NCBI GenBank assembly: GCA_001462235.1
Contig: LIUI01000009.1
Span: 1,755 to 34,829 of the forward strand
Direction: 5' to 3'
DNA length: 33,075 nt
DNA from: Fibrobacteria bacterium GUT307
Lineage (GTDB): Bacteria; Fibrobacterota; Fibrobacteria; Fibrobacterales; Fibrobacteraceae
Part shown: in pieces, positions 1 through 6,985 of the stretch
Layout: every line of letters starts with the position of its first letter
Numbering within the stretch: position 1 is the first letter of the stretch
Notes under the pieces: generated by a model
The model's input: only the letters and a program-made list of their open reading frames with translations
Databases searched by the model: none
What the model was told of the DNA's origin: nothing
Translations under genes and position numbers: made by a program

Positions 1-306
1 TTCCTTAAAGGATGGGAAATTGTTTCTAAAAAAGCATCCCTCGGTTCAAATGTGAAAGAAGTGCTGTCTCAGGTGGAAAGCGCAAGTGTTGACTGCGGCG
101 TGGTGTATGCCACCGATGCGGCTACGGCAAAAAATGTAAAAGTGGTGACCTTCGCTCCGGAAGGCAGCCATAAACCGGTGGTTTATCCTGCGGCCGTATT
201 GAAAGGTTCAAAAAATCCAACTGCAGCACAGGCTTTTTTGGATTTTTTAAGCTCGCCCAAAGCGGTAGCAGTGTTTGAAAAAATAGGATTTACTGTGGTT
301 AAGTAA
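1..306 (+). CDS. modA: ModA molybdate-binding protein, C-terminal part (cut by window edge)
   Basis: The frame is open from base 1 and ends with TAA at 304-306, so only the last ~101 residues of a periplasmic molybdate-binding protein are visible. It aligns over its whole length with the end of the next gene: shared stretches include CGVVYATD, APEGSHKPVVYPAAVL and FLDFLSSPKAVAVFEKIGF. The VVYATD and GSHKPVVYPAAVL segments are typical of the C-terminal lobe of ModA. The protein would deliver molybdate to ModB/ModC. Its amino end, including any signal peptide, lies outside the window. The ATG at 52 is internal, not a start. Confidence 0.85.
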   Translation, partial: FLKGWEIVSKKASLGSNVKEVLSQVESASVDCGVVYATDAATAKNVKVVTFAPEGSHKPVVYPAAVLKGSKNPTAAQAFLDFLSSPKAVAVFEKIGFTVVK

Positions 307-990
307 ATGAAGATATTTGCCGCCATAAGCCTTGCGAAAGTGTTAAATGAAATTGCAACGCTGTACAAAGCCGTTGCACCGGACATAACACTTTCTTTTG
401 AGTTTGCTTCCAGTGGCAAGCTAAAAACCCGTATTGAGAACGGCACCGATGCAGATTTGTTTCTTTCTGCCGGGCAAAAGCAAATGGACGCACTGGCCGG
501 CAAATTCATAAACGATGCTACACGCAAAAATTTGCTGATCAATAAGGTGGTGCTTATAGTGCCGCAAAACAGCACAAAAAGCATTTCTTCTTTTGAGGAT
601 GTTTTAACCGATAAAGTATCGCTCGTAGCATTGGGCAATGCCTCTGCGCCTATTGGGCAGTATTCGGAAGAAATATTTACCTTCTTAAAAGGCTGGGATA
701 TTGTTTCTAAAAAAGCCTTCCTCGCTTCAAATTCAAAGAAGGTGCTAGCTCAGGTAGAAAGCCTAACTGTTGTTGACTGCGGTGTGGTGTATGCCACCGA
801 TGTTGCTGCGGCAAAGAATGTAAAAGTTGCGGCCTTTGCTCCAGAAGGCAGCCATAAACCGGTGGTTTATCCTGCTGCTGTATTGACGGGTTCAAAGAAT
901 CCAACTGAGGCACAGGCTTTTTTGGATTTTTTAAGTTCACCCAAAGCTGTAGCGGTGTTTGAAAAAATAGGATTTCAAGTGGTGAAATAA
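307..990 (+). CDS. modA: Second ModA copy, starting directly at the mature domain
   Basis: This 227-aa protein has a full ModA-type binding fold: FAAISLAKVLNEIA at the start, ASSGKLKTRIENG, DLFLSAGQKQMDAL and the C-terminal VVYATD/PVVYPAAVL region. Its ATG follows the stop of the first copy with no gap and in the same frame. The reading frame is therefore one tandem repeat interrupted by a single TAA. There is no signal peptide: the protein begins at the first strand of the mature domain. It differs from copy 1 at scattered codons and carries one extra codon before DCG. No clear Shine-Dalgarno sequence precedes it. It is either a cytoplasmic or non-functional duplicate, or reaches the periplasm only if joined to copy 1. 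modB follows after 1 nt. Confidence 0.85.
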   Translation: MKIFAAISLAKVLNEIATLYKAVAPDITLSFEFASSGKLKTRIENGTDADLFLSAGQKQMDALAGKFINDATRKNLLINKVVLIVPQNSTKSISSFEDVLTDKVSLVALGNASAPIGQYSEEIFTFLKGWDIVSKKAFLASNSKKVLAQVESLTVVDCGVVYATDVAAAKNVKVAAFAPEGSHKPVVYPAAVLTGSKNPTEAQAFLDFLSSPKAVAVFEKIGFQVVK

Positions 991-991
991 G

Positions 992-1654
992 ATGGATTTA
1001 TTTCCTTTATTTAACTCACTTAGAATTACCGCAATTGCCACTTCTGCCGCATTTGTCGTTGGCATCTTTGCGGCTTACGCTGTTTTGCGTTTGCCGCGAT
1101 TCGTCAAGGGTTTGTGCGATACCATTCTCACCATTCCTCTGGTGTTGCCCCCCACAGTGGTGGGCTATTTTATACTCGTGTGGCTCTCGCCAAGGAGCGT
1201 GATTGGCACAAAACTTTACGAGTGGTTTTCAATGACAATCACCATGCGTTGGTATGCAGCGGTGGTGGCAGTTGCCATCATCGCATTTCCTTTTGTGTAT
1301 AGAACAGCACGTGGAGCATTTGAAAGTTTTGACCAAAACCTGTTGGATGCCGGGCGAACTTTGGGGCTTTCTGAAAAATATATCTTTTTTAGAATACTTC
1401 TTCCCAACTGCAAACACGGAATTATAGCGGGAACGGTGATAGCATTCGCACGCGGCCTGGGCGAATACGGCGCAACCAGCATGGTTGCTGGGTATATCCC
1501 CGGCAAAACAGCTACAGTTTCCACATCCGTAGCATTCTTTTGGCAGATAAACCAAGACGATATGGCGTTTTATTGGGTGATGATAAATCTTGCGGTGTCT
1601 GTTGTATTTATGGTTTTAATCAATGTGTTCAACAAGCCAAAAGTTCGGGGGTAG
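992..1654 (+). CDS. modB: Molybdate ABC transporter permease ModB
   Basis: This 220-aa inner-membrane protein has five to six hydrophobic segments. The ABC-permease EAA-type loop lies around residues 115-165 (DAGRTLGLSEKYIFFRILLP, then ARGLGEYGATSMVAGYIPG), which is characteristic of ModB. The opening LFPLFNSLRITAIAT and the LPPTVVGYF segment also match the family. It forms the membrane channel for molybdate, receives substrate from ModA and couples to ModC. It starts 1 nt after modA and ends 2 nt before modC, so the genes form one operon. Length is normal. Confidence 0.95.
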   Translation: MDLFPLFNSLRITAIATSAAFVVGIFAAYAVLRLPRFVKGLCDTILTIPLVLPPTVVGYFILVWLSPRSVIGTKLYEWFSMTITMRWYAAVVAVAIIAFPFVYRTARGAFESFDQNLLDAGRTLGLSEKYIFFRILLPNCKHGIIAGTVIAFARGLGEYGATSMVAGYIPGKTATVSTSVAFFWQINQDDMAFYWVMINLAVSVVFMVLINVFNKPKVRG

Positions 1655-1656
1655 CA

Positions 1657-2703
1657 ATGCTTGTATGCGATATTGGTAAAAATCTGAACGGCTTTTCTCT
1701 TGATGTGAACATTGCAGCTAAACCCGGCGTTACTGCGTTGATGGGGGCTTCGGGCAGCGGCAAGAGCATGACTCTTCGCTGCATTGCCGGCATTTCCAAA
1801 CCGGACAGGGGGCGAATTGAATTAAACGGCGTTGTGCTGTTTGACTACGAGAAGAAAATCAACCTGCCTCCGCAAAAACGCAACACTGGCTTTTTATTCC
1901 AGGATTATGCCCTATTTCCCAATATGACTGTGCGGCAAAATATTATGACCGGTGCAAAACATAAAACCACCCATGAAAAACAAAGTGCCGCAGAAGAATT
2001 GGCAGAGACCTTTCACATAACGCCGCACTTGAATAAATACCCTTGCCAGCTTTCCGGTGGCGAAAAACAGCGGTGCGCATTGGCACGCATCCTTGCCGGT
2101 TCACCCGATATCCTCATGTTAGACGAGCCTTTTGCCGCTCTTGATAGCCATTTGCGTTGGGAACTGGAACTGGAACTTGCAGGGTTGCTTAAAAGTTTTA
2201 ACAAACCCATTCTCTATGTATCGCACAACCGTAGTGAAGTCTATAGACTATGTGATGACATTGTTATAATGAACGCAGGCAAAAATGAAGTTTTTGGCGA
2301 TAAACGCACGGTATTCAAAAATCCTGCGACTGTTCAAGCCGCGCGGCTTACGGGTTGTAAAAATATAGCGGCGATTGCCATCACGGGAACTCGGATATCT
2401 GTGCCTAATTGGGGCATTGAATTTGAAGCGGTTAAAACACCGAAAGACATTCATTATGTCGGCATTCGGTCTAATTATATAATTCCGGCATCCATTGCGA
2501 AAGAAGGCGATGTTATTGCTGCATTCCCCTTTGAGATAGTGAGTGAAATTGAGGATACTTTCACCAGTATTTTAATGGTACGCAAGCGGGGAACGAATTT
2601 GCCTGTTATTCGATGGGAAATGCCCAAAAAAGAGCGTGCGGCATTACGAGGAATGCCGCAGGAGTTGGCATTTTTGCGTGAATATGTTTTGTTTTTAAGG
2701 TAG
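1657..2703 (+). CDS. modC: Molybdate ABC transporter ATPase ModC
   Basis: This 348-aa ATPase energises molybdate import. Visible motifs are Walker A GASGSGKS (residues 30-37), the Q-loop in FLFQDYALFP, the ABC signature LSGGEKQR (132-139) and Walker B ILMLDEP (152-158). The remaining ~110 residues form a divergent TOBE/MOP-like regulatory tail. An upstream in-frame ATG at 1540 would run 117 nt into modB. The start at 1657 is preferred because the protein then begins like ModC and sits 2 nt after the modB stop behind a G-rich stretch. The 3' end overlaps the convergent nhaD gene by 9 nt. Confidence 0.95.
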   Translation: MLVCDIGKNLNGFSLDVNIAAKPGVTALMGASGSGKSMTLRCIAGISKPDRGRIELNGVVLFDYEKKINLPPQKRNTGFLFQDYALFPNMTVRQNIMTGAKHKTTHEKQSAAEELAETFHITPHLNKYPCQLSGGEKQRCALARILAGSPDILMLDEPFAALDSHLRWELELELAGLLKSFNKPILYVSHNRSEVYRLCDDIVIMNAGKNEVFGDKRTVFKNPATVQAARLTGCKNIAAIAITGTRISVPNWGIEFEAVKTPKDIHYVGIRSNYIIPASIAKEGDVIAAFPFEIVSEIEDTFTSILMVRKRGTNLPVIRWEMPKKERAALRGMPQELAFLREYVLFLR

Positions 2704-5042: not shown

Positions 5043-5828
5043 ATGAGAAATTTTAACCTGCTGGAAAATAATATGATACAACTTCCCAGCGGCGTGTTTG
5101 CTGGGGTAGATAGCTATACCTGTTACCCAAGCGGAGAATTGGAAGGCGTTAAACTTTCTGAAAAGAATATGCTTGTTACCCATGCAGGCGAGTTGATTCC
5201 GGCTTATATTGAAACACACCGCCGCAAAAATAAATTTTCCGTAGAGTTTTATAAAGGCGGCACGATTAAAGCAATAGCCATCAACGAGATGCAGGAGATA
5301 CAAACCCCTATAGGTGAATTCCCTGCCGAGCTTGTTACTTTTTTTGAGACAGGAGAATTAAAACGCTTCTTTCCACTAGACGGGAAAATTAGCGGGATGT
5401 GGAGCGAGCTGGAAGAAAAGGCTCTTGCAATTCCGCTGTCTTTTGACTTGCCTTTTGCATCGTTTACTGCGATTATCAGCGGGGTTGCTTTTTACCAAAG
5501 CGGCAATATTCGCAGCATAACGCTATTCCCCGGAGAAACGGTGCGTATAGCAACAAAATACGGAGAAATTCCCACAAGGAGTGGTTTTTCTCTGTATGAA
5601 TCTGGAAAGCTGGAATCACTGGAACCAGCCGAACCAACGGTAATAAAAACCCCAACTGGTGCACTTAACGCCTTTGACCCAGATGCGGTAGGTATAAACG
5701 CAGATGTAAATTCCCTTGTATTTGACGAAGAAGGCGAAGTAATTGCCATAAACCCTGCGCCTTTTGGCTCATTGCAAATGTGCAGCCCAGAAGATTGCGA
5801 AAGTTGTTCGCAGGGATGTGAATTATGA
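5043..5828 (+). CDS. Conserved YxSG-repeat protein with C-terminal cysteine cluster
   Basis: This 261-aa protein has no function I can name. It contains five degenerate repeats of the form aromatic-x-[SG/T]-G-x-[LI], at YPSGELEGVKL (res. 28-38), YKGGTIKAI (70-78), FETGELKRFF (101-110), YQSGNIRSITL (151-161) and YESGKLESL (185-193). They alternate with TP[IT]G-type turns. This recalls MORN-like beta-hairpin repeats. The last 15 residues carry C247-x4-C252-x2-C255-x3-C259, a possible metal or Fe-S site. The start at 5043 has AAGG 6-7 nt upstream; ATG 5073 is the alternative. It lies between an AnfO-family gene and an OstA-like gene, overlapping the latter by 4 nt. It is likely cytoplasmic since no signal peptide is seen. 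Confidence 0.8.
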   Translation: MRNFNLLENNMIQLPSGVFAGVDSYTCYPSGELEGVKLSEKNMLVTHAGELIPAYIETHRRKNKFSVEFYKGGTIKAIAINEMQEIQTPIGEFPAELVTFFETGELKRFFPLDGKISGMWSELEEKALAIPLSFDLPFASFTAIISGVAFYQSGNIRSITLFPGETVRIATKYGEIPTRSGFSLYESGKLESLEPAEPTVIKTPTGALNAFDPDAVGINADVNSLVFDEEGEVIAINPAPFGSLQMCSPEDCESCSQGCEL

Positions 5829-6985
5829 AGAACATAATACTCATCCTTTTTCTATTCTTGCCGGCAATATCCCAAACGCCGTTTCTTCCTAATGCAAAAA
5901 TTGAGAAAGGCAAAATGCCGCTTGTTATGGAACATGCAGACTCACTTTTTGCCATGCGAAAAGCGGGACATTTGTTTTTGCAAGGGAACGTTAAATTTAA
6001 GCATGATTCCATTGATTTCAGGACCGAACGGGCTTTTTGGAATAGAATTTCCGATGCGGTTCAAAGCGAAGGTGGTTTTGATTTTCGCTACCCCAAAGGA
6101 AATATAAAGGCAGATAGAGGACATTATGCCAGAAAAACCAACATAGCCATAGCAGAAGGAAACGCCGAGGCTCGCGACTCTGCGGGTAAGGGTGCATTTT
6201 TTGGCGAAAAAATATTTTACAACCGGAGCACAGAATTTATGGAAATACCAATTAAACCATTTGCCCATTATTATTTTGAGGAAAAAGGTGTTTTAGACAC
6301 TCTGGCAATTCGTTCCAAAACAATGATATACAACCAACGTGAGCAGATAGCCATAGCCGCAGACTCTGTTTTAATCACAAGAAGGGATGTTATAATCACA
6401 GGTGATACTGGAATTTACAACCAAAAGGAAGGTTTTTTATCATTAAAGGGAAATCCAAAATGCATCATGAGCGATTACACCGTTACCGGGGATTCCATGT
6501 TTGTGAAACTGCAAGACAACGAGGTAGAATCCGTTTTGGTTATTAAAAATGCACATGGTACGCAACAAACAGCGGCAATTGGCAAAAAACCTGCCCAACA
6601 TTCGGAAGTTTTTGGCGATACTCTCTTTTTGGCGGTAAAAAACAACAAAGCCCAAAGCCTTTATGTAAATCTAGAAGCAAAAGGCCTATTTTACGAAGCT
6701 GATCTACCTGATTATGTAAACAAAATGAGCGGCAATCGCATGGATATTTCCTTTGATTTGGGGCGAATGAAGCTGGCAGAGGTAAAGGGCAATGCCAGCA
6801 GCATGGTATTTAATATAAACCCAGACAGAAAGGTGGATGGAAAAAATGAATCCAGCGGAGAATCCATTTACATCTCCTTTGATTCTGCCCAGGTTAGCAA
6901 AATTAAGGTAAAAGGAAACCTGGCATCTGGTATTTATTACGACATGAGCAAGGTTAATGACACAAAAATAATGACAAACCCTTGA
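5825..6985 (+). CDS. OstA/LptA-like LPS-transport periplasmic protein
   Basis: This 386-aa protein begins with a signal peptide (MKNIILILFLFLPAISQ). It continues with beta-strand-rich OstA-type repeats: LFLQGNVKFKHDSIDFRTERAFWN, GNIKADRGHYARKTNIAIAEGNAEARD, and DSVLITRRDVIITGDTGIYNQKEGFLSLKGNP. OstA/LptA proteins form a beta-jellyroll bridge that carries lipopolysaccharide across the periplasm. At 386 aa it is roughly twice a typical LptA and lacks the LptD barrel, like the OstA-like proteins of several Gram-negative phyla. Its ATG overlaps the previous stop (ATGA), indicating translational coupling. The stop codon lies inside the -35 box of the next promoter. Confidence 0.8.
   Translation: MKNIILILFLFLPAISQTPFLPNAKIEKGKMPLVMEHADSLFAMRKAGHLFLQGNVKFKHDSIDFRTERAFWNRISDAVQSEGGFDFRYPKGNIKADRGHYARKTNIAIAEGNAEARDSAGKGAFFGEKIFYNRSTEFMEIPIKPFAHYYFEEKGVLDTLAIRSKTMIYNQREQIAIAADSVLITRRDVIITGDTGIYNQKEGFLSLKGNPKCIMSDYTVTGDSMFVKLQDNEVESVLVIKNAHGTQQTAAIGKKPAQHSEVFGDTLFLAVKNNKAQSLYVNLEAKGLFYEADLPDYVNKMSGNRMDISFDLGRMKLAEVKGNASSMVFNINPDRKVDGKNESSGESIYISFDSAQVSKIKVKGNLASGIYYDMSKVNDTKIMTNP

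Follow-up and report, generated by a model that had tools for sequence, protein, structure and literature searches.

Why does a mod operon carry, between its exported ModA and the permease gene modB, a second ModA frame without a signal peptide, and what would such a protein do? The locus opens a window of 33,075 nucleotides (the whole stretch of DNA analysed, G000:C9:1755-34829) from an assembly (G000) of a termite-gut type bacterium with 2.62 Mb in 157 contigs, 90.9% completeness and an estimated contamination of 3.55%.

Anatomy of the tandem modA locus

The tandem is followed directly by the genes of a molybdate ABC transporter:

1..306, + strand: 3' part of modA copy 1 (signalled ModA) and its stop TAA at 304-306; open reading frame and TIGR01256 profile
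307..990, + strand: modA copy 2, a complete 227-aa ModA domain without signal peptide; TIGR01256, Pfam and AlphaFold
992..1654, + strand: modB, molybdate ABC transporter permease; TIGR02141, 189.7 bits (cut-off 182.6)
1657..2703, + strand: modC, ATP-binding subunit; TIGR02142, 217.3 bits (below the cut-off of 285), and Pfam ABC_tran

In the window, copy 1 is an open frame at 1-303 that encodes 101 residues of the C-terminal part of ModA. The ATG of copy 2 at 307 directly adjoins the TAA of copy 1 in the same frame, and copy 2 ends with its own TAA at 988-990, a single base before modB (TAA-G-ATG). Both copies exceed the TIGR01256 (ModA) cut-off of 62.5 bits, with 143.6 bits for copy 2 and 79.0 bits for the copy 1 fragment. 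They are 82.2% identical in DNA over the mature part, and copy 2 opens with the first strand of the mature domain. The original prediction of an in-frame tandem duplication of the mature binding domain, opening right after the stop codon, is thus confirmed by the profile scores, the open reading frames and the alignment. Furthermore, modC matches ABC_tran in Pfam, with an SMC_N match below its cut-off, and a TOBE domain was not found in it by Pfam.

A scaffold gap of 121 N (C9:1634-1754) splits copy 1 just upstream of the window. The 5' part of the gene, on the far side of this gap at G000:C9:1163-1633, carries the signal peptide and a Shine-Dalgarno-like AGGAGG. The gap is probably spurious because both of its flanks (C9:1610-1633 and 1755-1778, the latter being window 1-24) carry the same 24 bases. 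Merged over these bases, the two halves give a 250-aa open reading frame, the length found in a close relative (G001), whose protein they match at 96% and 99% identity. A third ModA copy inside the gap was considered and is unneeded, as the merged halves already reach the length of the G001 gene. No Shine-Dalgarno sequence is visible by eye before copy 2, so the output of copy 2 may be low; a promoter scan at the locus found none and is uninformative as evidence.

Directly upstream of copy 1 lies a 383-aa protein (L003:2-1150, clipped by the contig end) that looks by eye like an outer-membrane β-barrel and has no Pfam match. Further along the window, 5825-6985 encodes a protein with an LptD_N domain, in a stretch that is otherwise unremarkable.

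Absence of an export signal from copy 2

Among their first 35 residues, the three copy 2 proteins have no more than 8-10 uncharged ones in a row versus 15-26 in 10 signalled ModAs, and their most hydrophobic 12-residue stretch averages 1.3-1.7 in hydropathy versus 2.15-3.35. This simple hydrophobicity measure was applied to 13 of 14 sequences, L027 being left out for an N-terminus that falls in an N run. By this measure, neither a Sec nor a lipoprotein export signal was found on copy 2, in agreement with the prediction that it has no signal peptide. A longer in-frame start was considered as well and is impossible with TAA directly upstream; the same stop codon leaves copy 2 without a signal except by read-through. 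Collectively, the lack of an export signal and the stop codon directly upstream indicate that copy 2 is a ModA-domain protein and not a periplasmic ModA.

Conservation of the tandem in relatives

We searched 41 genomes, namely G000 and 40 relatives, of which 12 belong to the genus. Matches were found in 11 of the 41, and modA is present in 6 of the 12 genomes of the genus. Three of these six (G000, G001 and G002) carry the TAA-ATG tandem, a recurrence that chance does not explain, and in all three copy 2 is open and full-length at 227 aa, with TAA directly before ATG each time. The tandem is known only from these three closely related genomes. The G001 contig, C31, is taken to be LIUG01000031.1 of Candidatus Fibrimonas termitidis GUT221. 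Outside the group, 43 of 43 ModA loci (50 loci minus the 7 of the group itself, which were examined separately) contain a single ModA frame in the DNA retrieved, extended N-terminally beyond the matching part, and in none of them did this DNA include a second, signal-less copy. One of the 43, L069, matches only over 38 residues near the C-terminus.

Within the genus, G009 and G011 each have a single modA, and G005 has two modA genes, both with a signal, at a distance of approximately 180 bases. The second modA of G005 (L025:4862-5539) is independent and signalled; it shows the ligand changes Ser→Ala and Tyr→Phe and a different loop replacing VPVGQY, and judging from these residues it may perhaps serve another substrate. 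In the single-copy relatives, modA is joined directly to modB. In several relatives, the stop codon of modA and the start codon of modB touch or overlap, for example as TAA-ATG in locus L026; single-copy G009 has TAA-T-ATG.

Copy 2 is encoded with modBC in G000 and G002 and apart from them in G001. There, modBC are found on a separate contig (C7), preceded by a topoisomerase-like frame; the tandem, where copy 2 is still open, has an adenine-methylase-like frame after it (both frames named by eye). Provided that the G001 assembly is correct here, copy 2 has persisted after losing its connection to modB. In addition, a truncated third copy-2-type 3' end lies at a contig edge of G001 (C10; L077:1-159); other sequence stands in place of its stop codon, and it ends in residues closer to copy 2 of G000 than to the full copy 2 of G001.

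Duplication history and selection

In the full DNA tree, the copy 1 clade of the three genomes has a bootstrap value of 97, their copy 2 clade 100, and both together 78. Both clades branch as (G000, G001), G002. The matching branching indicates a single duplication that took place before the three genomes diverged. The modA pair of G005 falls elsewhere in the tree and arose independently. The copy 2 start aligns with a first-strand Leu codon of copy 1 (TTG, CTG or CTT there, ATG in copy 2). As modA and modB meet as TAA-ATG in L026, this ATG may derive from the former modB start, to which mature modA became joined, or else from a point mutation in the Leu codon.

To compare synonymous and non-synonymous change, we applied a codon branch model (own script) to 11 of 14 sequences, with G005_2, L026 and G019 left out. 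For the first 160 codons, omega is 0.217 in the copy 2 crown, 0.66 on the copy 2 stem and 0.098 elsewhere; for all 229 codons, the values are 0.184, 0.87 and 0.110, respectively. A crown omega of 1 is rejected in both sets (p = 2.3e-10 for 160 codons and 2.5e-18 for 229 codons). The difference between stem and crown is not significant over 160 codons (p ~0.08) and reaches p ~0.013 over 229, both computed by hand from the likelihoods. With crown values of 0.22 for copy 2 versus 0.09 for copy 1, non-synonymous change in copy 2 is about twice as fast. In G001, the last third of the two copies is 96-97% identical versus 72-89% in the rest of the gene, the pattern of gene conversion between the copies, and the two copy clades are lost in a tree restricted to this last third. 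Gene conversion as the sole cause of the low dN/dS was considered and rejected, since the first 160 codons alone give the same result. Collectively, copy 2 is under purifying selection after a faster stem. The prediction that it has been kept for some time is borne out by these ratios and by the orthologues in three genomes, and the locus is a real, conserved and selected signal-less ModA paralogue.

Fold and ligand site of copy 2

The AlphaFold model of copy 2 shows a complete ModA fold with a pLDDT of 95.9, in which residues 2-6 form the first strand. Among solved structures, ModAs match it best, with a TM score of 0.93-0.95 and an rmsd of 1.4-1.5 for 4kd5. Pfam matches of copy 2 are confined to SBP_bac families, and neither a DNA-binding domain nor another extra domain was found by Pfam.

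Ligand positions were placed by alignment with E. coli ModA, using what we take to be its ligand numbering. Structure prediction and residue counts relied on 29 rows chosen from more, with G002 left out. The positions compared are those of Acinetobacter baumannii ModA, for which ligand contacts with the backbone NH of S39, S66, V150 and V177 and the hydroxyl of Y195 are reported (PMC11734730). The corresponding copy 2 residues are Ser8, Ser36, Ile116, Ser143 and Tyr162, of which Ser8, Ser36 and Tyr162 are kept. Position 143 is Ser in copy 2 and Val in 27 of the 27 other ModA rows, and position 116 is Ile in copy 2 and Val (13), Ala (13) or Leu (1) in the others. Moreover, copy 2 has an inserted Val155 before the Tyr loop that is absent from all 27 other rows. 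Copy 2 of G002 carries the same Ile, Ser and insertion. As aligned, the predicted ligand site is kept but altered, identically in all three copy 2 proteins. Because the contact at position 143 is a backbone NH in A. baumannii, the change from Val to Ser keeps this group and need not alter ligand binding; molybdate binding by copy 2 may persist.

Compared with ModA (TIGR01256; Pfam SBP_bac_11), copy 2 thus shares the score over the cut-off, the fold, three ligand residues and the position in the mod operon; it differs by the missing signal peptide, by Ile and Ser (the latter for Val) as third and fourth ligand residues, and by one additional residue before the Tyr loop. The proposed job of copy 2, cytosolic oxyanion binding, is that of the molbindins (Mop) and other TOBE-domain proteins, which bind molybdate or tungstate in the cytosol with a fold unlike that of ModA. 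Copy 2 has no TOBE domain, and no TOBE protein (PF03459) was detected in any of the 12 genomes of the genus, whereas 12 of 14 control genomes were positive. ModA-like domains fused to helix-turn-helix regulators also place a ModA-type domain inside the cell; unlike these, copy 2 has no DNA-binding domain. A further model for the possible job is the molybdenum storage protein MoSto, which is a different protein and differs in load, since a ModA binds one oxyanion. In Azotobacter vinelandii, MoSto is reported to store more than 100 Mo atoms each and to donate Mo for FeMo-co in vitro (PMC6448029).

Role of copy 2

We favor, with slightly more confidence than doubt, a cytosolic molybdate-binding paralogue that is made by translational coupling and kept by selection. 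A tandem duplication would have copied mature modA from the first β strand to the stop codon, minus the signal sequence. Ribosomes finishing copy 1 could restart on copy 2 at the adjoining ATG, presumably as they pass from modA to modB. Copy 1 would remain the exported binding protein of ModABC, and copy 2 would stay in the cytosol, fold as a complete ModA and have its altered ligand site kept by purifying selection. Inside the cell, it would most likely bind molybdate or a related oxyanion, and from this we infer the leading options for its role: buffering or donating molybdate, or sensing it.

Sensing could take the specific form of a cytosolic molybdate sensor that acts on ModBC or on transcription, replacing ModE or the missing TOBE of ModC. 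The place of copy 2 between modA and modB, its altered pocket and the absence of TOBE domains from all 12 genomes fit such a regulator. We nevertheless consider it unlikely, as no DNA-binding or additional domain was found in copy 2, copy 2 of G001 no longer adjoins modBC, and the single-copy relatives, likewise without TOBE, manage without copy 2. A redundant duplicate in the course of decay would account for the faster stem (omega 0.66-0.87), a crown changing twice as fast as copy 1 and the truncated copy-2-type end in G001. Such a duplicate is not expected to show a crown omega of 0.18-0.22 with neutrality rejected, frames that are open and full-length in three of three genomes, or shared derived pocket residues that are conserved, and we regard decay as improbable. 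The tight TAA-ATG and TAA-G-ATG junctions might alternatively make copy 2 a mere translated bridge from modA to modB. For this purpose an open frame would suffice and no conserved protein would be required, against an omega of 0.2. Moreover, modA joins modB directly in the single-copy relatives, and the retention of copy 2 in G001 without modB behind it speaks against a bridge role, which is therefore very improbable.

The original prediction had also left room for a read-through of TAA to a double-length ModA. With the shared frame and the single stop between the copies, such a double ModA might be made and exported. This reading is not supported: TAA is kept in all three genomes with ATG next each time, no linker separates the copies, no fused double ModA was found in the 41 genomes searched, stop and start codons also touch or overlap between modA and modB in several relatives, and TAA is the least leaky stop codon in bacteria. 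We judge an exported double ModA to be hardly credible. An assembly artefact of the metagenome bin, which the same prediction named as the finding that would undo it, could draw on the scaffold gap just upstream with its repeated 24 bases and on the estimated contamination; TAA-ATG itself lies in sequence free of gaps, and two further assemblies repeat it with the divergence of orthologues. An artefact is thereby excluded for the junction, and as a general explanation it is extremely unlikely.

Molybdenum context of the genus

Among the 12 genomes of the genus, molybdopterin oxidoreductases were detected in none (11 of 14 controls), and MoaA exceeded its cut-off in none (best score 72 bits versus 284; 7 of 14 controls over the cut-off). 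NifQ gave no match, nor did it in any of the 14 control genomes, and is hence uninformative. NifD-family matches are present in 5 of the 6 modA-bearing versus 0 of the 6 modA-free genomes (two-sided Fisher p = 0.015, ignoring relatedness). In four of the five NifD-positive genomes, a nifD-like frame of full length scores 638-641 bits and falls slightly short of the cut-off of 653.55; the fifth, G002 (assembly 60% complete), has NifE/NifN-B-like frames only, with no full nifD or NifH. In G005 and G011, nif and mod lie on one contig. According to an earlier study, nif genes in this phylum are sporadic and laterally gained (PMC4704652).

In G000, only weak partial matches to nifH/D/K/E/N were obtained and none of these genes was found; the stretches matching both flanks of the G001 nif cluster (G000 C99 and C36) have no nif beside them. 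A nitrogenase role therefore cannot hold in G000 unless the ~9% absent from the assembly contains these genes. The need for molybdate within the genus may be due to nitrogenase, which by the present data does not account for the retention of the tandem in G000. In nif-bearing relatives, copy 2 could serve nitrogenase cofactor synthesis; we put forward its handling of molybdenum for nitrogenase only as a hypothesis. A broader proposal combines these points: one signal-less tandem duplication would have turned a periplasmic binding protein into a cytosolic molybdate carrier or sensor, selected beside its exported parent in bacteria with no detectable TOBE-type proteins and perhaps supplying nitrogenase cofactor assembly. 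Taken as a whole, this proposal is tentative and claims more than we would expect to hold. If true, nature would here offer a clean example of how gene duplication moves a binding protein to another compartment in a single step, with the adjoining exported parent as a control. Copy 2 would also be a testable candidate for the cytosolic holder of molybdate in bacteria where the search detected no TOBE-type binding protein. No known tandem or cytosolic ModA was recognised from titles and the beginnings of abstracts in the open-licence literature, a search that cannot show absence from print. Finally, frames of 847-877 aa in G001:C26, G002:C57, G005:C80, G009:C60 and G011:C35 have both nitrogenase-family and radical-SAM matches, from which we infer that they are probably NifN-NifB fusions.
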